DNA of 35,361 nt from a bacterium (GTDB lineage: Bacteria > Patescibacteriota > Gracilibacteria > UBA1369 > GCA-2718715), in the NCBI GenBank assembly GCA_018662325.1, contig JABJGM010000011.1:1-35361 (forward strand), read 5' to 3'. Made by a program: the position numbers and the translations under genes. The notes under the pieces are model-generated. The model saw only the letters and a program-made list of their open reading frames with translations. It did no database searches and was not told the DNA's origin. Shown piece after piece: positions 409-33,914 of the stretch (the first letter of the stretch is position 1; every line of letters begins with the position of its first letter).

Positions 409-3294
409 CTAAATCAATTTCTTTAACCAATGAGCAGTGTAGCTGCTTGGGTGTTTAGCAACTTCTTCTGGAGTTCCTTCGACTAGAATTTCTCCACCTT
501 TGTCACCACCCTCTTGTCCAATATCAATAATGTGATCCACACATTTTACAACATCCAAATTGTGCTCGATTGTTAAAACCGTGTTACCTTTATCAACTAG
601 CTTCTGAAGTACTTCTAAAAGTTTAGCCACGTCTCCAAAATGCAGCCCTGTGGTTGGTTCATCTAAAACATAAAGTGTTTTACCAGTTGAACGCTTAGAA
701 AGCTCTGTGGCTAATTTAACACGCTGTGCTTCACCACCTGAAAGAGTATTCGCAGATTGACCTAAATGAATATATCCAAGTCCAACTGCATTTAATGTTT
801 CCATTTTTCTTTTTATCGATGGAACTGCAGCAAAAAAGCTCATTGCTTCTTCTACTGTCATTGCTAAAATATCTGAAATGTTTTTACCTCTGTATGCAAC
901 TTCCAAAGTTTCTCTATTGTATCTTTTCCCATTACAAGTTTCACATTGCACATAAATATCTGGCAAAAAGTGCATTTCAATTTTCTTAGTTCCATCTCCA
1001 GAACAATCCTCACATCTTCCACCTTTAACATTAAAAGAAAATCTCCCTGCATTATACCCACGAACTTTTGCTTCTGGAGTAGCTGCCAATAAATTTCTAA
1101 TATCCGTAAAAACACCAGTATAAGTAGCCGGATTCGAACGCGGAGTTCTTCCAATTGGAGATTGATCAATATTTATTACCTTATCAACATTTTCAAGTCC
1201 TTTAATTTCTTTGTGCTCACCTGAAACAGCTCTACTTCGAGAGTTTGTTTCTAACATAACTTCTTTTAGCAAAATATCATTTACTAAAGTAGATTTACCG
1301 GAACCTGAAACTCCAGTTACAGCAATAAATTTTCCAAGAGGGAACTTAACATTTATATTTTTCAGATTGTTTTGAGAAGCCCCAAGAACTTCTAAAAATT
1401 TTCCATTCCCTTTTCTTCTTTTTGTTGGAACTGGCATATCTTTTTTACCACTTAAGTAAGCACCAGTATCAGTGTTATCGGATTCTAAAAGTTCTTTTGG
1501 TGTACCCTCAAAAATCACTTCTCCACCATGTTTTCCAGCTCCAGGTCCAATGTCTATAATGTAATCCGCTGCCAGCATAGTGTCAGAGTCATGCTCTACC
1601 ACAATTACAGTATTTCCAAGATCTCTAAGCTCAACTAAAGTTTTAATTAGTTTGTCGTTATCATTTTGATGAAGTCCAATTGACGGTTCATCAAGCACAT
1701 ACAAAACTCCACTAAGTTTTGATCCAATTTGTGTAGCCAAACGAATTCTTTGGGCTTCACCACCAGATAAAGTGTTAGCCGATCTACTTAGTGTTAAATA
1801 AGAAAGACCTACATCCATTAAGAATTTCAAACGATCAGAAATTTCTTTTAAAATCATTTTGGCAATCACAGCTTGAGTTTTATCAAGTTTAACATTAGTA
1901 AAGAAATCTAAAGCTTTTTCTACTGAAAAATTAGTGACATCAATAATATTCTTTCCACCAATCAAAACACATAAAATTTCTTTTCTTAATCTTTTCCCTT
2001 CACAACTTGGACATACTTGTTCATTCATATATTCTTCAAAACGTTTTTTTGAAGTCTCTGAGTCAGCCTCAGCATGACGTCTCATTAAATTTGGAATTAC
2101 TCCTTCGTATTTTGTCCGATAAACAGATCCACGCATTTTTGAAGTACTTGGAACTCTTAAATCATATTCAATATCTTCAGTTCCATAAAAAAGTAAAGTT
2201 TTTTGCTCTGGGCTTAATCTTTTAAATGCAATATTCATTGGAATTTCATTAGCCACACACACAGCTTCAAGTAAAGCATAATACCAGCCCGTAGCCGAAT
2301 AACTGTTAGCCCATGGCAAAATAGCGCCTTGCGACAAAGATAAAGTTTGATTAGGCACCAATAAATTAACATCAATTACTTGCTTATAACCAAGTCCGTG
2401 ACAGTCCTGACAAGCTCCATGTGGAGAATTAAAAGAAAACATTCTTGGTTCTAAATTCGATAAAGAATTCAAGCCTTCTACAGCCTCAAAATTTTCCGAT
2501 AATCTTAGTTCTTCTTGGGTATCATGATTTAAAATAATTACATCTCCTTCCCCAAACTTTGCAGCCGTTTGCATAGAATCTGCAAGTCTTGTTTTATTTG
2601 GATTTGGAACTTCAACTGTTTCTCCAAAATTATTTTCTTCAAAACTCGACTCATAATTTTTCACAACCAATCTATCTACCACAATTTCCAGAGTATTATG
2701 CTTTTTTGGATCAATTTCAGGAATCTCTAAAATAGAATGAATTTGTCCATTCAACCTTACTCTCACAAAACCTTCTTTTTTAATCTCATCTAAAACCTTT
2801 TCATGCTGACCCTTTCTACCTTTTACAACAGGAGCCAATAATATAATTTTTGTGCCTTGGGTAAGTTCAGTAACCTTTTCTACCATCTGACTCACCGATT
2901 GTCTTTCAAGAGGTTTACCAGTTTTAGGATCATGAGGAACCCCAACTTTGGCAAACATTAATCTTAAATAATCATAAATTTCCGTTACAGTACCAACTGT
3001 CGACCGCGGATTTCTACTCGCAGTTTTTTGATCAATCGAAATAGCAGGCGAAAGCCCATCAATCTGATCTACATCAGGTTTTTCAGACAATTGTAAAAAC
3101 TGTCTTGCATATGCAGACATACTTTCTACATATCTTCTTTGTCCTTCTGCATAAATAGTATCAAAAGCTAAACTCGATTTACCAGAACCTGAAAGTCCAG
3201 TAATCACAGTAAGTTTATTTTTGGGAATTTTTACTTCTATATTTTTTAAGTTGTGCATTCTTGCACCCTTAACATGTAAAAATTTGTTAGACAT
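409..3294 (-). CDS. uvrA: UvrA, excinuclease ABC subunit A
   Basis: UvrA is the damage-recognition ATPase of nucleotide excision repair; it loads UvrB at lesions. At 961 residues it has normal length. Visible are Walker [10 protein letters not shown] (33-41) and a second GVSGSGKST (661-669). There are two LSGGEAQR signatures (the first at 509-516), and Walker B/D-loops DEPSIGLH and DEPTTGLH. Two zinc modules are kept: C295/C298 with C428/C431, and C761/C764 with C784/C787. The two cysteine pairs that normally bracket the insertion domain are absent: near 119-131 the sequence reads [13 protein letters not shown], and near 268-276 NFEAVEGLN. The gene diverges from the ComEC-like gene across 40 bp and converges on the terminator at 358-391. 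The ATG at 3294 has a -10 box 24 bases upstream. Confidence 0.97.
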
Positions 3295-3318
3295 TTTTTA
3301 ACTTTTATTAACCCCTCC

Positions 3319-3346
3319 ATTATACACTTTAAACATGAAAAAACAA
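3319..3346 (-). promoter_or_regulatory. Predicted uvrA promoter
   Basis: On the minus strand, a -10 TATAAT (3324-3319) lies 16 bp from a -35-like TTGTTT (3346-3341), which sits inside the start of the divergent gene. GGAGGGG at 3317-3311 lies 16 bases before the ATG, too far for a normal ribosome site. No LexA-type operator was recognised. Confidence 0.55.
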
Positions 3347-4147
3347 CACAAAACCCTTTTTATCATTACAATAAGCTTAATTCTTTTAATTGGATTTCGT
3401 TATTATCATTTAACAAAATACAAAGGAATAATTGTTGTCTTTTTCAATACTAAGGAGGGGGATGCTATTTTGATTCGCAATACAGACTTTTGTTCAATAT
3501 TAATTGATGGGGGATCGGACTACGCAATGTTAGATTCTTTGTATAAATATCTACCTTTTAATAAACGAGATTTTGATCATGTTTTTGTTTCTCATCCACA
3601 CCACGATCATATCCATGGTTTGAATTTGATATCTAAACGTTTTGAAATTCAAAATTTATATTATCCATTTTTACCATTTCAAAAAGAATCTTTAGATGAT
3701 TTAAAAGATTTAAGTAAAAACAAATTTGAGGTAAACCAAGAGATCAAAGATATAAAAGCTTGTGAGTTAGATTTTAAAGTATATAAAGTTCCTCTTGAAA
3801 AAGATGAAAAAGACTTGAATCTGCATAGCCTTGTGATTGAAATTTATGATAATCAAGAATTTATTTTTTTCGCTGCTGGAGATATTTATCAAGAGCAAGA
3901 AAATTACTTAATGCAAAATCGTAATTTAAAAAATGTTTATTTATTTAAATCCAACCATCACGGGTCAAAAACCTCAAATTCTAAAGAGTTTCTAGAATTT
4001 TTGAATCCTAAGGTTACTGTTGTTACAGCAGGTTATGCAAATCGATTTAAGCACCCTCACCAAAAAGCAATTCAAAATATAGCTCAACACTCTAGGTTAG
4101 TATTAAGAACTGATGTAGAAGGTGAAATTTTAATTCAGCCACCTTAA
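3335..4147 (+). CDS. Membrane-anchored ComEC-type metallo-beta-lactamase-fold hydrolase
   Basis: One N-terminal membrane segment (about 7-23) is followed by a metallo-beta-lactamase fold. Visible metal ligands are SHPHHDHIHGL (86-96), GD (182-183), SNHHGS (207-211) and HPH (240-242). This matches the C-terminal extracellular domain of the competence protein ComEC/Rec2, but the OB-fold and multi-helix pore of full ComEC are missing. At 270 residues it is a stand-alone, exported or surface-tethered version. In the family this domain is thought to act on incoming DNA. Whether this copy is a nuclease, phosphodiesterase or other hydrolase cannot be told. It diverges from uvrA and ends 2 bp before the convergent wall-protein gene. 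No Shine-Dalgarno sequence precedes the ATG. Confidence 0.8.
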   Translation: MKKQHKTLFIITISLILLIGFRYYHLTKYKGIIVVFFNTKEGDAILIRNTDFCSILIDGGSDYAMLDSLYKYLPFNKRDFDHVFVSHPHHDHIHGLNLISKRFEIQNLYYPFLPFQKESLDDLKDLSKNKFEVNQEIKDIKACELDFKVYKVPLEKDEKDLNLHSLVIEIYDNQEFIFFAAGDIYQEQENYLMQNRNLKNVYLFKSNHHGSKTSNSKEFLEFLNPKVTVVTAGYANRFKHPHQKAIQNIAQHSRLVLRTDVEGEILIQPP

Positions 4148-27087: not shown

Positions 27088-28329
27088 CTACTTTATTCCA
27101 TATATAAATTTATAAAAATCATTTACATTTATTCTTGCAAGCTCCTTAAAATATTCATCGTTAATTCCAGACTTAAATAGAAGAAGAAGTCTATGATCGA
27201 CTAATTCTTTGTATAGAGCAAATCTTTCTTGGTTTGTAATACCATTGTAGTCTTGTAAGATGGAATGTGCTATGGAGTTACTCCTTTGAACAACATCAAA
27301 CCTTGCAAGTAAATCTAAGTCTTCCGCCCCTACTTTAAGTTGAGTATTAATGAATTTAATTTGTAAAATTTGTATTTTTTCTATGAACATATCAGCATTT
27401 GTAATTTTATGACTAGGTTTTTTAAAAGAAATATTTGTTTTCAATTCCAAAAGTTCATGAATTCTAATGTAATTATAATTAAAAATATCTTCTTGATTAT
27501 TTAAAATACTAATATCAAAGATTAATTTTGTTTTTAATTTTTCAATTTCAAAAATTTCTAGAAAATTGTCTTGATTAAGTAAGCTTATTGTCTTAATTGT
27601 TTGTAAGTTTTGAATTTGTTTTTTTATAATCAAACTAGCACTATTAAACTCCTGTAAAAGTTTTTTATTTGAGGGCTCTACTAATTTAAGACTAAATTCT
27701 ATTTCCTCTTTAAGTTCAGTAAGTTCTTCAATTGATAGTTCTGACAAATCAAAAGTAGAGTTTTCCATTTTTTCTAAAATGAGAACTTTAATTCTTAGTA
27801 AAGTCGGATGAATATCTGAAGTTCTGTTCGATTCATTTAAGGGATCAAAAACTTGCTCGCAAATTCTTTTTATAGATTTTAAAATATATGTAAGTTCCAA
27901 TTTATCAAATTCCTCTTCGATTTGTTTAAGCTCTTCGATTAACTCTTTAGTTTGTTGATCTTGTAATAGGGAAAAGTGAACCTTTCTAATAGTTCCATCA
28001 ACATCCTTCATTATTATATAAGGAGAATTTTCTTCAATTTCATGAACTCTATACTCATTTAGAGATTGGGTTCTAAAGTTTAGAAGATTGAATCTTAATC
28101 TGTATAGACCTTTTTTTTTCAGCTGCTTTTCAAAATCAAATACTTTTTTTTCTTCGATTTTATCCATTAATGCACTTCTAACTGCATCTATTGTAAATTG
28201 TATTTCGTGTATTTCATTTTTAAAGATAAATTTTTCACCATTTTTCCCTTTATATTTATACCCGTCAAAAATATCATCTAAACCAAAACCTGTTTTAGCT
28301 CTTATAACTGAATCAAATGATTGTTGCAT
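27088..28329 (-). CDS. Helical protein of unknown function (413 residues)
   Basis: I do not recognise this protein. It is hydrophilic, Leu/Ile/Glu/Lys-rich and mostly helical, without a signal peptide or membrane span. The N-terminal part (about 1-130) could be a small mixed domain (DGYKYKGKNGEKFIF; VHEIEENSPYIIMKDVDG). From about 130 on there are long charged helices with coiled-coil character (LIEELKQIEEEFDKLE). It lies between the deoxynucleoside kinase and the ABC exporter on the same strand, with 51 and 50 bp gaps and its own candidate -10 (TATTAT, 28351-28346), so it is probably monocistronic. No function is proposed. Confidence 0.75.
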   Translation of the reverse strand: MQQSFDSVIRAKTGFGLDDIFDGYKYKGKNGEKFIFKNEIHEIQFTIDAVRSALMDKIEEKKVFDFEKQLKKKGLYRLRFNLLNFRTQSLNEYRVHEIEENSPYIIMKDVDGTIRKVHFSLLQDQQTKELIEELKQIEEEFDKLELTYILKSIKRICEQVFDPLNESNRTSDIHPTLLRIKVLILEKMENSTFDLSELSIEELTELKEEIEFSLKLVEPSNKKLLQEFNSASLIIKKQIQNLQTIKTISLLNQDNFLEIFEIEKLKTKLIFDISILNNQEDIFNYNYIRIHELLELKTNISFKKPSHKITNADMFIEKIQILQIKFINTQLKVGAEDLDLLARFDVVQRSNSIAHSILQDYNGITNQERFALYKELVDHRLLLLFKSGINDEYFKELARINVNDFYKFIYGIK

Positions 28330-28380
28330 TCTAATACTTATGTAAATAATAGATAAACTCTACACCTAAAAACTAAAATG

Positions 28381-28983
28381 TCAAGTCAAGCTCGTCTGTA
28401 TTTTATTAAGTAATAGTTTTTTATCTTCTTTGTTGTTTACAAAGTCTAGGTTGTTTACATCAATTACAAGTAATTTGGACCAGGAATAGTTTTTAAAGTA
28501 CGTTTCATATCTATTGTTTAGGTCTACCCAGTAGTTTTCATCTTGTGAAGTTTCATAGTCTCTACCTCTTTTTTTAATTCTTTTGATAGCATTTTCTGGT
28601 GATATTTGTAAGTAAACCATTAAATCAATAGGTCTTATATTTTTATAAAAATTTTGATACACATCTAAATATATTTCAAATTCAAAATCTTCAAGCATTC
28701 CTTGTTTATAAAGCATTTGAGCAAAAATTCGATCTTCTACAATACCTCTATCAATACAGGATTTACTAAATTCTTTTGAGGATTGATACATAGAAAATCT
28801 TTTACTTAAGAAATAAATTTGCATAGCAAGAGAATATTTCTTTTTATCCTTGTAGTAATTTTCAAGCAAATTAGTATCAACAAATGGTTCGTAAAAAACC
28901 GTAAAGTTTAATTCTTCTTCTAATATTTTACAAAGTGAACTTTTACCTACCCCCACCACACCAGCAATATTTATAACAGTCAT
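28381..28983 (-). CDS. Deoxynucleoside kinase
   Basis: This is a deoxynucleoside kinase (dCK/dGK/dAK family) of 200 residues, which makes dNMPs from salvaged deoxynucleosides. It shows a P-loop GVVGVGKSS (8-16), the catalytic EPF (32-34), the DRGIVEDRIFAQML helix (78-91) corresponding to the DRS/ERS motif, and a lid region IKRIKKRGRDYE (about 133-144). The exact base preference cannot be read off. It diverges from nrdAB, so salvage and de novo dNTP supply share one 278-bp control region. Its promoter carries five 11-bp repeats upstream (29020-29074). Confidence 0.88.
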   Translation of the reverse strand: MTVINIAGVVGVGKSSLCKILEEELNFTVFYEPFVDTNLLENYYKDKKKYSLAMQIYFLSKRFSMYQSSKEFSKSCIDRGIVEDRIFAQMLYKQGMLEDFEFEIYLDVYQNFYKNIRPIDLMVYLQISPENAIKRIKKRGRDYETSQDENYWVDLNNRYETYFKNYSWSKLLVIDVNNLDFVNNKEDKKLLLNKIQTSLT

Positions 28984-29005
28984 AATAAAAATTATTTACA
29001 TATAC

Positions 29006-29014
29006 TTTATATCA
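29006..29014 (-). promoter_or_regulatory. Extended -10 of the deoxynucleoside kinase gene
   Basis: TGATATAAA is read on the minus strand, with TATAAA at 29011-29006 ending 22 bases before the ATG. The -35 position (about 29034-29029) falls in the direct-repeat array and has no good match to TTGACA, consistent with an activator-dependent promoter. Confidence 0.55.
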
Positions 29015-29019
29015 AAAAT

Positions 29020-29074
29020 TTTTAAAAAAATCTTAAAAAAATCTTAAAATTTTCTTAAAAAAGTCTTAAGAATT
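29020..29074. promoter_or_regulatory. Five 11-bp direct repeats, PhoB/PhoP-box-like
   Basis: On the plus strand, TCTTAA recurs exactly every 11 bases at 29031, 29042, 29053 and 29064, each followed by a 5-base A/T-rich spacer. TTTTAA at 29020 continues the phase. Read towards the kinase gene this is TTAAGA-N5 repeated, the geometry of response-regulator boxes of the OmpR/PhoB family (B. subtilis PhoP uses TTAACA-N5). The array spans the -35 region and upstream of the kinase promoter. The phased A-tracts would also bend the DNA. Confidence 0.6.
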
Positions 29075-29204
29075 TCAACTGAAATTTTTGTCAATTCTTA
29101 ATTTTGTTTACATTTAAAATCATTATAAATATTCAATTCGCATACACTAAGTCAGTCCTCAGATTATGATTAATCAAAAATAAATAAGTGTCTATATGAA
29201 GTAG

Positions 29205-29231
29205 TTGATTTTATAAAAAACACAATATAAT
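29205..29231 (+). promoter_or_regulatory. Predicted nrdAB promoter
   Basis: TTGATT (29205-29210), a short 15-bp spacer, and TATAAT (29226-29231). The -10 lies inside the first NrdR-like box and ends 30 bases before the ATG. Confidence 0.5.
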
Positions 29232-29268
29232 GTATATCTACACTCTTTTTAACCACAATATATGGCTA
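29220..29268 (+). promoter_or_regulatory. Two NrdR-like boxes over the nrdA promoter and start
   Basis: Box 1 (29220-29235) contains ACACAATATAATGT and fits the NrdR consensus acaCwATATaTwGtgt at about 14 of 16 positions. Box 2 (29253-29268) contains CCACAATATATGG, about 11 of 16, and overlaps the ATG at 29262. The two are offset by 33 bases, about three helical turns, as in known NrdR operators. No nrdR gene is present in the window. Confidence 0.55.
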
Positions 29269-31880
29269 CTTATAAAATTCAAAAAAGATCAGGAGCTGTC
29301 GTTGATTTCGATAAAGAAAGGATAGGAGTTGCGATTTCTAAAGCAATCGAATCTATTGAAAACTACGACCATACAGACCAGAACTTACCACTTAATTTAA
29401 CTAAAGAAATTAATTCTGAATTAGAAAAACATTTCTTCTTACAAGATAAAATTCCGTCAGTTGAAGATATTCAAAACTTAGTTGAAGAAAAGTTAGTAGA
29501 AGCAAACTGCTTCGAAGTTGCAAAAAGCTTTATTTTATTTAGAGCACAAAGAACAAAACTAAGAGCCCATAAAAGAATTTTTGAACTTGAAAATATAGAT
29601 CAAAATAGAACTAAAGTTTTCAAATTTGATGGAGCACAGGGTATTTACAATGAAGCAAAACTCAGAAACACTTTTGCTATTGCTGCCAAGGGGGTAGAAG
29701 ATGAATGTAAATTTGAAGATCTGATCAAAGTTTTTAATATTACTTTAATTGATGGACTAAAAACCCAAGATATCCTTCGTAACCTTAGAAAAGCTGCTAT
29801 TGATTTGATTTCAGTAGAAAACTCAAAATGGCAATTAGTTGCAGGAAGACTTTTCACAATGGAATTCTACAAAAAAGCTTGTCGGTCAAGAAACATGACC
29901 TTTGATGATATTTACAGTCCTGAAAGCTTTAAAAAGCATTTTGATGATTATATTCAAAAAGGATTATATTCTACAAAATTTTACGAGAACTATACTGAAG
30001 ATCAAATTTTAGAAGCAGCCACTTGGATTAATAAAGAAAGAGATTTTGAATACGGATATTCAACTTCATTAGCTTTTAACAAAAGATATCTGTTGAATCC
30101 AAATAAGAAATTCCATGAGCTCCCTCAGGAAATGTACCTAGCGGTTGCACTTTTCTTGGCTATCCCAGAAAAACAAGAAGATAGAATGAAAGTGGCTCAA
30201 AAAATTTATGAAGTAACTTCTTCACAAAAATTAAGCCTTCCAACTCCAACTCTTTTAAATGCTAGAACTAATTTCCACCAGCTTTCAAGCTGCTTTAAAT
30301 TGAATGTTGATGATGATTTAAGGTCGATCTACCACAATATTGAAAATATGGCTCAGATCTCTAAATTTGGAGGCGGAGTAGGTGTTTATATGGGACATAT
30401 TAGATCAAGAGGAGCTTCAATTAGAAAAGTTGAAAATGCTTCTGGTGGAGTAATTCCTTGGATAAGAGTAATCAATGACACTGCTTGTGCGGTAAACCAG
30501 CTTGGTGCTCGTCTTGGAGCTATTTCTCCAACTTTGGATATTTGGCACAAAGACATTCATGACTTTTTAGAAATGCAGACTGAAACAGGAGACATTCGAT
30601 CAAAAGCATTTGATGTATTCCCAGCAGTTTCGGTTCCAGATGTTTTTATGCAAAGAGTAAAAAATAATGAAAACTGGACTCTTTTTGACCCATGTCAGAT
30701 TAAAAGTGTAACCGGAAAAAAATTAGAAAATCTTTTTGACCAAGAATTTACAGACTTCTATTTAGAGTGCGAACAAAATCCAGCACTTACATTAAAAGAA
30801 ACTATTCCAGCTAAAGAGTTAATGAAAGCTATGATGAAAACTCAAGTAGAAACCGGAATGCCGTATGTTTTCTTTAGAGATACTGTAAATAGATTAAATC
30901 CTAATGCACATGCTGGAAATATTTATTCAACTCAGCTTTGTACTGAAATCTGCCAAAACACTAGCCCTTCAACTTACGAGTCAGAAACCATCGAAGGAGA
31001 TAATGTAGCAATTAGATACAAAACAGGGGATTCAGTAGTATGTAACTTAGCTTCAATCAATATGGCTAAAGTTAACACTCAAGAAGAAATTGATAAGGTT
31101 TTCCCAGTTGCCATGCGTGTATTAGACAATGTGATTACTCTAAATTACTATCCAATTGAAGAATCAAAGCTTACTTCTCAAAAATACCGTTCTGTTGGAC
31201 TTGGGTTCCTAGGTCTAGCTGAGTACTTAGCCTGCAATCAATTAGCTTACGACAGCCAGCAAGCTAGAACTCATGTAGACGAACTATTTGAAAGATACGC
31301 TTTTGCAGGTCTAAAAGCTTCTAACGAATTAGCAATACAAAGAGGTGCTTATGAACTTTTCGAAGGCAGTAAATGGCAAGAAGGTATACTTTTTGGAAGA
31401 GACAAATCTTGGTATCAAGAAAATGCTAAAACAGATTTAAATTGGTCTGAATTAATAGATTCAATTTCATCTCAAGGTACGCGTTTTGCTTATCACTTTG
31501 CTCCAGCTCCAAATACATCTACTTCAGGTGTAGTTGGAACAACAGCAGGTTTGCTTCCGATTTATAAAAAACTTTTTGTAGAAACTAATGTAATCGCTCC
31601 TACAGTAATGGTGGCCCCAAATCTTTCTCAGCAAAATATGTGGTATTACAAAGAATACAAAAACATGCAAATGCCAGAAGTAATCGATATGATTGGAACA
31701 ATCTACAAATGGATCGATCAATCAATTTCATTTGAGTGGATGATGAACCCAGAAAAGACTTCTCCAGCTGATTTATACAATTGGTATTTCCAAGCTTGGG
31801 AAAATGGAATCAAGACGGTATACTACCTTCGATCTCTATCTGGAGAAATTAAAGAGGATTGCGAAAGCTGCTCAGGATAA
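29262..31880 (+). CDS. nrdA: Ribonucleotide reductase class I, large (alpha) subunit
   Basis: NrdA reduces ribonucleoside diphosphates to deoxy forms with a radical from NrdB. Visible are an N-terminal ATP-cone (about 1-100), the large-subunit N-domain (about 118-210), and catalytic cysteines C344 (in LSSCFKL), C560 (in QLCTE) and C594 (in VVCNLAS). The substrate-site segment GGGVGVYMGHIRSRG (370-384) and the C-terminal redox pair C867/C870 (CESC) are also present. At 872 residues it is longer than the E. coli enzyme (761). The residue two before the radical cysteine is Gln558 where class I and II enzymes I know have Asn. It is followed after 15 bases by nrdB. Two NrdR-like boxes precede it. 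Confidence 0.96.
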   Translation: MATYKIQKRSGAVVDFDKERIGVAISKAIESIENYDHTDQNLPLNLTKEINSELEKHFFLQDKIPSVEDIQNLVEEKLVEANCFEVAKSFILFRAQRTKLRAHKRIFELENIDQNRTKVFKFDGAQGIYNEAKLRNTFAIAAKGVEDECKFEDLIKVFNITLIDGLKTQDILRNLRKAAIDLISVENSKWQLVAGRLFTMEFYKKACRSRNMTFDDIYSPESFKKHFDDYIQKGLYSTKFYENYTEDQILEAATWINKERDFEYGYSTSLAFNKRYLLNPNKKFHELPQEMYLAVALFLAIPEKQEDRMKVAQKIYEVTSSQKLSLPTPTLLNARTNFHQLSSCFKLNVDDDLRSIYHNIENMAQISKFGGGVGVYMGHIRSRGASIRKVENASGGVIPWIRVINDTACAVNQLGARLGAISPTLDIWHKDIHDFLEMQTETGDIRSKAFDVFPAVSVPDVFMQRVKNNENWTLFDPCQIKSVTGKKLENLFDQEFTDFYLECEQNPALTLKETIPAKELMKAMMKTQVETGMPYVFFRDTVNRLNPNAHAGNIYSTQLCTEICQNTSPSTYESETIEGDNVAIRYKTGDSVVCNLASINMAKVNTQEEIDKVFPVAMRVLDNVITLNYYPIEESKLTSQKYRSVGLGFLGLAEYLACNQLAYDSQQARTHVDELFERYAFAGLKASNELAIQRGAYELFEGSKWQEGILFGRDKSWYQENAKTDLNWSELIDSISSQGTRFAYHFAPAPNTSTSGVVGTTAGLLPIYKKLFVETNVIAPTVMVAPNLSQQNMWYYKEYKNMQMPEVIDMIGTIYKWIDQSISFEWMMNPEKTSPADLYNWYFQAWENGIKTVYYLRSLSGEIKEDCESCSG

Positions 31881-31895
31881 CTAATATAAAACACT

Positions 31896-32930
31896 ATGAA
31901 TTTTCAAAAAAACAAAATTTTCAACCCCGCTGCTGATGATTCAATTTCAAAAAGAACCATCATTAAAGGAGAGTCCACAGGACTCTTCAACCTTGGTGAG
32001 GTAAAATACTCTTGGACAAAACAAATGTACCAAGTGATGGTTGGTAACTTCTGGGTACCTGAAAAAGTATCAGGACTCACAGATGATGGAGCTCAATATA
32101 AAAATCTTACAGATAATGAAAAAAGAGCCTATAAAGGAATTATTTCTTTCTTAACTTTCTTGGATAGTATCCAAACTGTTAACCTTCCAAATCTTTCAGA
32201 TTTTGTAACTTCTTCAGATGTAAACTTACTTCTTTCGATTCAATCTTTCCAAGAAGCAATTCACTCTCAATCATATACAACAATCCTTGAAACAGTAGTT
32301 TCAGCTACAGAAAGACATGAAATTTACTACTATTGGAGAGACGATGAAGTTCTCTTAAATAGAAATAAATATATTGGACAAATCTATCAAGATTTCCTTG
32401 ATGAACAATCCGATAGAAATTTCTTTAGAGCCTTAATTGGAAACTTTTTACTAGAAGGACTTTACTTCTACAATGGATTTGCTTTCTTTGACACTTTGGC
32501 ATACAACTCCAAAATGATTGCAACTTCAAGAATGATTAACTACATTCGAAGAGATGAACTAACTCACGTAGCACTTTTTGCAAACATCATCCGAGAAATC
32601 AAAAAAGAGTTCCCTGAAATGTATGATGAAAGCTTAATTATCAAAATGACCAAAGCCGCAGTTGAGCAAGAAATCAAGTGGTCTCATCATATTCTCGGAA
32701 ACACAGTTCCTGGAATCACTAAGAATTCTACCGAAATGTATACAAAATACTTAGCAAATATTCGATTAAATATGCTTGGAATAGCTCCAATCTACCCAGA
32801 TAACAAAGAAAACCCATACTTGCACCTTCAAAAAATGCAAGACAACAACTCCGAAAAGACTAACTTCTTTGAATCCACAGTAGTAAACTACACCCAAGCC
32901 TCTTCCATGAAAGGCTCATGGGACTTCTAA
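31896..32930 (+). CDS. nrdB: Ribonucleotide reductase class I, small (beta) subunit
   Basis: NrdB is the ferritin-like radical-generating subunit. Metal ligands are visible: D90 (FLDSIQ), E120 and H123 (QEAIHSQSY), E187 (FLLEGLY), E221 and H224 (RRDELTH). Tyr127 occupies the radical-tyrosine position of the EAIHSxSY motif, so this is a tyrosyl-radical type rather than the Phe-bearing class Ic. At 344 residues it has normal length. It is in an operon with nrdA (15-base gap) and followed by two tandem hairpins. Confidence 0.96.
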   Translation: MNFQKNKIFNPAADDSISKRTIIKGESTGLFNLGEVKYSWTKQMYQVMVGNFWVPEKVSGLTDDGAQYKNLTDNEKRAYKGIISFLTFLDSIQTVNLPNLSDFVTSSDVNLLLSIQSFQEAIHSQSYTTILETVVSATERHEIYYYWRDDEVLLNRNKYIGQIYQDFLDEQSDRNFFRALIGNFLLEGLYFYNGFAFFDTLAYNSKMIATSRMINYIRRDELTHVALFANIIREIKKEFPEMYDESLIIKMTKAAVEQEIKWSHHILGNTVPGITKNSTEMYTKYLANIRLNMLGIAPIYPDNKENPYLHLQKMQDNNSEKTNFFESTVVNYTQASSMKGSWDF

Positions 32931-32956
32931 CCCAACCTTTCATTAGAATCAAAATA

Positions 32957-32987
32957 AAACACCTCTTGTATAGTAGTGGTGTTTTTA
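32957..32987 (+). terminator. Intrinsic terminator of nrdAB
   Basis: The stem AACACC / GGTGTT (32958-32963 with 32978-32983) has a 14-base loop and is followed by T residues. It starts 26 bases after the nrdB stop. Confidence 0.7.
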
Positions 32988-32990
32988 AAT

Positions 32991-33020
32991 AAAAAAAACA
33001 CCTCATAAAAGGGTGTTTTT
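32991..33020. terminator. Second hairpin, terminator for tRNA-Ser(UGA) and back-up for nrdAB
   Basis: AAAACACC, an eight-base loop, then GGGTGTTTTTT, repeating the stem sequence of the hairpin just before it. An eight-base A-run on the left becomes a T-run on the minus strand, right after the tRNA 3' end (33023). It can terminate transcription from both sides. Confidence 0.8.
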
Positions 33021-33022
33021 TG

Positions 33023-33112
33023 TGGCGGAGAGACAGGGATTCGAACCCTGGAGACCGTTGCCAGCCTAACGGTTTTCAAGACCGTCGCATTCGACCACTC
33101 TGCCATCTCTCC
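33023..33112 (-). tRNA. tRNA-Ser, anticodon UGA
   Basis: A 90-base class II tRNA on the minus strand. The acceptor stem is GGAGAGA/TCTCTCC, followed by discriminator G and an encoded CCA. The anticodon stem ACGGT/ACCGT holds the loop CTTGAAA (anticodon TGA, reading UCA). It has a long variable arm and a GGTTCGAATCC T-arm. A plausible -10 (TAATAT, 33132-33127) lies upstream. It appears to be a single-gene unit ending at the hairpin 32991-33020. Confidence 0.97.
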
Positions 33113-33171
33113 ATAAATGTAAGGTAATATTATCGAAATTTTTTTTAAAAGTCCATAGAATTTTTAAAATA

Positions 33172-33229
33172 TTAAATTTCTATTAAATATTTAATAAAAA
33201 TTTTAAGAAAATTTTAACTTTTTTTAATA
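33172..33229 (+). promoter_or_regulatory. TTAA-type repeats upstream of the orphan regulator gene
   Basis: TTAA-led hexamers start at 33172, 33183, 33191, 33203, 33214 and 33224, so the spacings are 11, 8, 12, 11 and 10 bases. TTAAGA at 33203 is the same hexamer as in the kinase-gene array, in the same orientation relative to its gene. A -10-like TATAAA at 33239-33244 ends 22 bases before the ATG. The match is looser than at the kinase promoter and the region is very AT-rich. Confidence 0.4.
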
Positions 33230-33266
33230 TTAGACCTGTATAAATAAATTAAGGTAATCAAACTTT

Positions 33267-33914
33267 ATGAAATTTATAGTATCTAAACAAGTACAGAAAA
33301 GCTTAGAAAAAGACTTTCCAGAAGAATATTTTTTTGAGGGAGCACAGTCTTTCTTAAACTTAAATAAAGCCAAAGCAATGACTTTAAGTTATTTAATCAT
33401 AGAAGATAATATTCTAGAAAATATAAATATTTTAAATTCTATGCAAGATAAAAATCCACATTTAAAAATCATTCTTTATTATGATCCTATCTATTTAAAA
33501 CTTGATAAAGTTTTAAATTTACCAGTATCGCTACCATTTGCAAAAAATAATGATTTTGAAAAGTTTTTAGATTTTTTAATTGTTTTAAAAAGAAGAATTC
33601 AAAGAAATCCAATTAAGAAAAATTTTTACCAATCGGGATTTTTTCTAGATATTGAACAAAAATTACTTACCAAGGACTTAAAGCAGGTAAGATTATCGGA
33701 AATTGAATTTAAATTACTGCATTCTCTAATGTTGAGAAATGGAAGGGTTGTTTCAAAGCAAACTTTACTTGATGAGGTTTGGAATTATCATTTATTTACT
33801 AATACAAAAACTCTAGAGGTTCATATATCTAGGCTAAGGAAAATTCTTAAAAAAAATTTCAATGTAACGCCAATTCAAACTATATATAAAACTGGCTATA
33901 TGCTTGAGATCTGA
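33267..33914 (+). CDS. Orphan OmpR/PhoB-type regulator with degenerate receiver
   Basis: The C-terminal winged helix (about 118-215) is of the OmpR/PhoB type: LSEIEFKLLHSLMLRNGRVVSK, then TKTLEVHISRLRKIL as the recognition region, then IYKTGYMLEI as the wing. The N-terminal roughly 110 residues have the length and strand pattern of a receiver domain but lack the acidic pair (FIVSKQ where IVDDE is usual). D47 (YLIIEDN) and K93 (PFAKN) might correspond to the phospho-Asp and conserved Lys. No histidine kinase is in the window. It is therefore a pseudo-receiver regulator, perhaps phosphorylation-independent. Its promoter carries TTAA repeats, so self-control is possible. It ends with TGA and overlaps the protease stop by 19 bases. 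Confidence 0.85.
   Translation: MKFIVSKQVQKSLEKDFPEEYFFEGAQSFLNLNKAKAMTLSYLIIEDNILENINILNSMQDKNPHLKIILYYDPIYLKLDKVLNLPVSLPFAKNNDFEKFLDFLIVLKRRIQRNPIKKNFYQSGFFLDIEQKLLTKDLKQVRLSEIEFKLLHSLMLRNGRVVSKQTLLDEVWNYHLFTNTKTLEVHISRLRKILKKNFNVTPIQTIYKTGYMLEI

Follow-up and report, generated by a model that had tools for sequence, protein, structure and literature searches.

The window, a stretch of 35,361 nucleotides, is contig 13 of a genome of 980,408 bases in 14 contigs (70% A+T). It carries a deoxynucleoside kinase (dNK) gene, the divergently transcribed ribonucleotide reductase genes nrdA and nrdB, and an orphan OmpR/PhoB-type regulator gene (Table 1). A phased array sits between the dNK gene and nrdAB. 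Read 5' to 3' on the minus strand, the units CTTAAG, TTTAAG, TTTAAG, TTTAAG and TTTAAA are separated by the 5-bp spacers ACTTT, AAAAT, ATTTT and ATTTT, and the last unit is followed by AATTTTTGA and TATAAA. On the plus strand four units read CTTAAA or CTTAAG (29032, 29043, 29054 and 29065), and the fifth, TTTAAA at 29021, is in phase with them. The -10 hexamer TATAAA starts 9 nt past the last unit, and the proposed kinase promoter has no recognisable -35 apart from the array. The first-pass annotation had described five phased 11-bp repeats that cover the -35 region beside an extended -10, with the look of an activator-dependent promoter; the five units do lie at exact 11-bp steps, beyond what shuffled sequence yields, and the promoter has the described form. 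OmpR/PhoB-type operators consist of direct 6-7-bp repeats at 10-11-bp steps, with the last repeat over the -35 region at a fixed distance from the -10. The kinase array shows all of these features, and its unit spacing and -10 distance support the tandem-repeat geometry that had been proposed for it.

Table 1. Features of the window discussed in the text, in order of position.
Feature	Position	Strand	Basis
ComEC C-terminal metallo-beta-lactamase domain, separate gene	3335..4147	+	TIGR00361, E = 6.9e-31
Deoxynucleoside kinase (dNK), 200 aa, gene downstream of array	28381..28983	-	PF01712, E = 8.7e-48
Extended -10 TGA-TATAAA, proposed kinase promoter	29006..29014 (-10 = 29006-29011)	-	sequence
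Proposed activator-site array, five 6-bp units, 11-bp steps	29021..29070	-	sequence, genome scan, matrix
Array unit TTTAAA, last before the -10	29021-29026	-	sequence
Array unit TTTAAG	29032-29037	-	sequence
Array unit TTTAAG	29043-29048	-	sequence
Array unit TTTAAG	29054-29059	-	sequence
Array unit CTTAAG	29065-29070	-	sequence
Two NrdR-box-like 16-mers, 17-bp spacer	29220..29268 (29220-29235; 29253-29268)	+	sequence
nrdA, class I ribonucleotide reductase alpha, ATP-cone	29262..31880	+	PF02867, PF03477
nrdB, ribonucleotide reductase beta	31896..32930	+	PF00268, E = 4.4e-70
Degenerate array before the type B regulator gene	33182..33244	+	sequence, matrix
Orphan OmpR/PhoB-type regulator, type B	33267..33914	+	PF00486, E = 4.5e-23

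The first NrdR-like box upstream of nrdA overlaps a TATAAT -10, and the second spans the nrdA start codon, which is an unusual position. Against the NrdR consensus, box one matches at 14 of 16 positions and box two, a weak match, at just 11 of 16. An NrdR gene is present in the genome (C5:65781). In other bacteria, NrdR binds pairs of boxes with 14-17-bp spacers (PMC12051234). The nrdA gene is probably under NrdR rather than the array; because it has its own NrdR-box-like region and the genome encodes NrdR, separate control of the kinase and the reductase is suggested. Apart from tRNA, no Rfam RNA was found in 28300-33400. A homologue of dNK was found in one of 58 relatives (G003), where the array is absent upstream of the gene. 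The closest named homologues are distant and belong mainly to Balneolales/Bacteroidota, which suggests that dNK was gained horizontally; they do not help with the promoter.

The concern that phased runs of this kind might be common by chance in A+T-rich DNA was met by two results. Three phased TTAAGA units with at most 2 mismatches occur at a single place in the whole genome, the kinase array. In addition, when the 278-bp intergenic stretch was dinucleotide-shuffled 3,000 times, the observed scores for three, four and five phased units (18/18, 23/24 and 28/30) were never matched (shuffled maxima 16, 20 and 23). The array is therefore real and does not reflect A+T richness alone. Three phased bare TTAA units barely exceed the reversed control over the genome (12 hits per strand versus 8); thus, spaced TTAA alone is not distinctive, but the full run of hexamers is. 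A pattern of two units plus a -10 gave 28 hits in the whole genome, mostly intragenic and fewer than in the reversed control, and it still returned comF, a comM-like gene and comEC. Four or five phased TTAA units before the SHMT gene (C3:75043) were excluded because their -10 spacing differs.

The same site was found at competence genes in other members of the order, which comprises small-genome bacteria. Among the genomes compared there was no relative from the genus and there were three from the family; the search, for three TTTAAG units at 11-bp steps with at most 2 mismatches and a reversed control alongside, covered 89 genomes of the order. Two relatives from another family than that of the window's genome, G066 and G067, gave 36 hits against 2 and 18 against 2, respectively, and several other members of family f14 showed a milder excess. 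According to Pfam, the arrays of G066 and G067 precede comEC (PF03772, 6e-49 and 2e-47), comF (two), dprA (PF02481, two), comM/yifB (PF01078), recA (two), ssb (two) and dnaB, and also genes for lamin-tail-domain proteins. Reading by eye placed further arrays of the two genomes before REP-type transposase-like and antitoxin-like genes (L145, L168, L147, L157, L162, L153). In both genomes the last unit is followed by GTnnGnnTGnTAnnnT, giving the layout TTTAAG-10 nt-TAnnnT with TG before it (TGnTAnnnT); the TA lies exactly 10 nt past the last unit at 27 sites. This layout is that of an extended -10 with the array replacing the -35, as at promoters of PhoB-class activators.

Arrays elsewhere in the order precede ssb (G037), dprA (G060), comM (G027, G063, G064 and G065), comEC (G068) and recA (G070); the genes in G037, G060, G064, G065, G027 and G070 were identified by reading the start of the protein. 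A RadA/Sms-like gene in G001, from the window's own family, is also preceded by an array. Of 52 genomes, 22 have phased TTTAAG-like units before dprA at P <= 0.05, and 16 of these also at P <= 0.01. Strong TTTAAG runs were rare beyond the order in a class-wide search. The first-pass annotation had proposed a small regulon. Membership of the array in a regulon is supported, but the regulon is neither small nor private, since the site recurs at competence and recombination genes order-wide.

We built a matrix of 44 positions only from the G066 and G067 sites and ran it over 366 kb of the present genome; these stretches, about 37% of the genome, were chosen for their TTAA-array hits, and thus the ranks are not unbiased. 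The kinase array was the top site in the 366 kb with 28.0 bits, compared with a maximum of 21.8 bits over 300 shuffled intergenic sets (mean of maxima, 13.5). The second intergenic locus was comF (17.8 bits; 0.11 sequences expected at >=17 per shuffled set). The comM-like gene, with a YraN-family gene behind it, scored 14.2 bits, and a moderate site before dnaG also scored 14.2. The promoters of dprA (7.1 bits), comEC (6.6) and the gene for the ComEC C-terminal part (6.1) are individually weak and rank within the top 6-9% of the 198 promoters, comEC and the C-part within the top 7-9%. Taken together, the five competence promoters (comEC, ComEC C-part, comF, comM-like and dprA) differed from 194 others with P = 3.6e-6; this value is partly circular and somewhat flattering because TTAA hits had guided both the choice of stretches and the first notice of comF, dprA and the comM-like gene, while comEC and its C-part had been selected for their function regardless of the motif. 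In this genome, dNK, comF, the comM-like gene and comEC all have 9 nt between the last unit and the -10. The weak site directly before the ComEC C-part gene (about 3286-3326) consists of a small number of TTAA-like units in 10-11-bp steps and a TATAC.

Some of these genes have features of their own. The ComEC channel is encoded on another contig (C4:82506). The comM-like gene (L080:1565-2653), located before the YraN-family gene, encodes a degenerate YifB relative (TIGR00368, E = 0.007) that has lost most of the ATPase signature and carries a CPCG...CRC motif. A thymidine kinase gene (L076:782-1468) lies directly upstream of comF, a second case of salvage beside competence.

We propose, with a probability of about 0.7, that the array is the activator operator of a regulon for competence with nucleoside salvage among its functions. 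Regulator monomers would bind in a head-to-tail row along one side of the helix, each unit taking up 11 bp. With its final unit over the -35 region, the array would let the bound protein recruit RNA polymerase to an extended -10 without a -35 of its own. At a near-equal distance from the -10, this operator would control comEC, comF, dprA, comM/yifB, ssb, recA, dnaB and radA order-wide, and dNK would have joined the regulon in this genome. The link to the kinase comes from one genome because the only other relative with dNK among those searched, G003, has no array before it. Without a kinase, deoxynucleosides derived from imported DNA could not return to the dNTP pool. Once uptake is switched on, deoxynucleosides from imported and degraded DNA would be re-phosphorylated by dNK, whereas the divergent nrdAB, responsible for de novo synthesis, would stay under NrdR; dNK probably belongs to the DNA-uptake programme. 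A Saccharibacterium can grow without its com genes (PMC10633639); although that is a different species, the finding speaks against a general role in feeding.

The distribution of the site also bears on what the regulon is for. The targets include recA, ssb, dnaB and a radA-like gene, and dnaG scores 14.2 bits here, as might be expected of an SOS-like repair or replication programme. We consider such a programme improbable, as the targets repeated most often across genomes are comEC and comF, which belong to uptake proper, together with dprA and comM. In pneumococcus and similar competent bacteria, recA, ssb and dprA lie within the competence regulon, so these genes fit competence as well. Two further explanations would do without a specific protein or without any function. 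The A and T runs of the array return with an 11-bp period, and in a genome with 70% A+T they might form phased tracts of intrinsically curved DNA, a kind of UP-like element. However, A-tract bending would not require the G and the TpA step of the conserved TTTAAG, the spacers vary, no 11-bp peak of AAATTT was found in intergenic DNA, and in other genomes the hexamer, at a constant distance from the -10, singles out one functional group of genes; curvature is accordingly given little weight. Slightly less probable still is a recent 11-bp tandem duplication, in effect a functionless minisatellite produced by slippage. Two adjacent spacers are identical (ATTTT), but the others diverge while the hexamer is kept, and because the spacers are unlike the array is not a perfect minisatellite. 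Moreover, the array shares its promoter geometry with sites in other families, and a matrix trained outside the genome ranks it first.

The protein that would read the proposed competence operator is less certain than the operator itself. The first-pass annotation had suggested the type B regulator (33267), the only one of its type in the window, as a possible reader, with control of its own gene. The genome encodes a second orphan Trans_reg_C protein, type A, at C6:46429, so the choice is no longer limited to 33267. The 33267 protein gave no receiver-domain hit, whereas its winged helix is intact, with the PhoB winged helix as the best PDB match (E = 1e-11). Its receiver is degenerate: the acidic pair after strand 1 (FIVSKQ) and the Lys before PF (SLPF) are missing. 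The receiver of type A is also degenerate, with LFLP where Asp is expected, and many f14 members have no receiver; for both regulators of this genome the degeneracy was judged by eye from a poor receiver alignment. The type B gene is preceded by a tRNA-Ser gene and followed by S41 peptidase and uvrD genes. This neighbourhood is kept in relatives, with synteny in G003 and a peptidase-like neighbour in G009 and G022.

Each of G066, G067, G071, G027 and G058 encodes exactly one Trans_reg_C protein. In the first four it is type A and groups in the tree with C6:46429 and not with 33267, although the fork between A and B is weak (54/78) and both regulators of this genome are on long branches. The type A promoter in this genome has no array (-7 bits). 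Relatives with about 15 such arrays have type A as their sole Trans_reg_C protein. On this correlation, and if a single protein family reads the arrays order-wide, type A would most likely be the reader, with odds slightly better than even; the remainder, beyond the smaller share of 33267, goes to both proteins or neither. That 33267 instead reads the kinase array and its own promoter as a self-controlled regulon is a less likely arrangement, to which we give roughly one chance in four. The TTAA repeats noted earlier before its gene are present at 10-11-bp steps (ATTAAA 33182, TTTAAT 33192, TTTAAG 33202, TTTAAC 33213 and TTTAAT 33223) and are followed after 10 nt by TATAAA (33239-33244); they include TTTAAG-N5-TTTAAC and TTTAAT. 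Type B genes of family f7 likewise have TTTAAG/TTTAGG units upstream at 11-bp steps, and the winged helix of 33267 is, as stated, intact. On the other side, the array-rich genomes have no type B, and G003 has both type B and dNK yet no array. The promoter of 33267 ranks sixth of 198 with 10.2 bits, which is in the chance range, as about 2.9 sequences are expected at >=10 bits in shuffled intergenic DNA; self-control is thus possible but weak. If type A is the reader, 33267 may be one of its targets or a second reader, a paralogue that reads similar sites.

The operator resembles several known ones. In Helicobacter pylori, HP1043/HsrA has the experimental consensus TTTAAG-5bp-TTTAAG and activates transcription in vitro, and its two domains were modelled head-to-head (PMC8345958). 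The likeness extends to the position over the promoter and to an orphan OmpR/PhoB activator with a degenerate receiver that acts free of phosphorylation; the differences are that HP1043 has two hemi-sites and many housekeeping genes as targets, compared with three to five units and competence genes here. Orthology is not indicated, and the proteins are no more than distant relatives: the phmmer hit to 2HQR covers the winged helix only (E = 8.9e-6), a weaker match than to PhoB, SaeR and others. PmrA/BasR binds CTTAAG-5bp-XTTAAT half-sites head-to-tail (PMC3973317). These half-sites equal the unit of the kinase array and share its orientation, but PmrA has two of them, depends on phosphorylation and serves polymyxin-resistance genes. 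The head-to-tail arrangement proposed here follows PhoB and PmrA because the HP1043 study models the domains head-to-head.

The E. coli PhoB box consists of 11-bp direct repeats with the unit CTGTCAT; a tandem-binding winged-helix activator occupies them across the -35, some 10 nt upstream of the -10. The kinase array has the geometry of this pho box, whereas PhoB has an intact, phosphorylated receiver and controls phosphate genes. The first-pass annotation had placed the array close to the TTAACA boxes of Bacillus PhoP. Both are 6-bp TTAA-type repeats at 11 bp, but the unit here is TTTAAG(A)/CTTAAG, the half-sites of HP1043 and PmrA fit better, and TTAACA pairs have no 11-bp preference here, none at 11 bp being found in 366 kb of the genome. 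The competence regulons of ComX/SigX, TfoX/Sxy-CRP and ComK have the same targets (comEC, comF, dprA, ssb and recA), with a class of regulator and an operator unlike the one here. Because neither regulator of this genome has an intact phosphorylation pocket, activity would be set by the level of the protein or by a ligand, as for HP1043. The fuller picture, in which a phosphorylation-independent, HP1043-like OmpR/PhoB orphan reads the TTTAAG arrays and in this lineage couples DNA uptake to deoxynucleoside salvage, making imported DNA a nucleotide food, is put forward tentatively, as slightly short of an even chance.

Tandem OmpR/PhoB sites are known, and so are competence regulons. Neither a described competence operator for such bacteria nor a competence regulon with the present operator was found in the literature searched, which lay mostly outside subscription journals and preprints. 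Natural competence has been shown in Saccharibacteria, and the extent of its activity across Patescibacteria is a question raised by the authors; no response regulator or transcription factor was found in the text of that paper (PMC10633639). If the order belongs to the Patescibacteria radiation, a sequence-defined operator with a one-candidate regulator would make competence control directly testable. If the kinase belongs to the regulon, DNA uptake would be tied to nucleotide supply, which bears on the long-debated purpose of competence.

In G066, G067, G071 and G027 the type A genes adjoin a glyS-like gene and a gene for a protein with sigma-70 region 4 and HARE-HTH. The arrays might in fact be read by this sigma-region-4/HARE protein or by some other protein. 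The sigma-70 region 4 and HARE-HTH protein (L199:222-1304, for example) stands beside type A in many f14 genomes. Upstream of many type A genes order-wide, at about 100-170 bp, there is an inverted repeat resembling CTGTTGT-N6-10-ACAACA followed by CACTTTT (L199, L205, L206, L212 and others), possibly an operator or a terminator.
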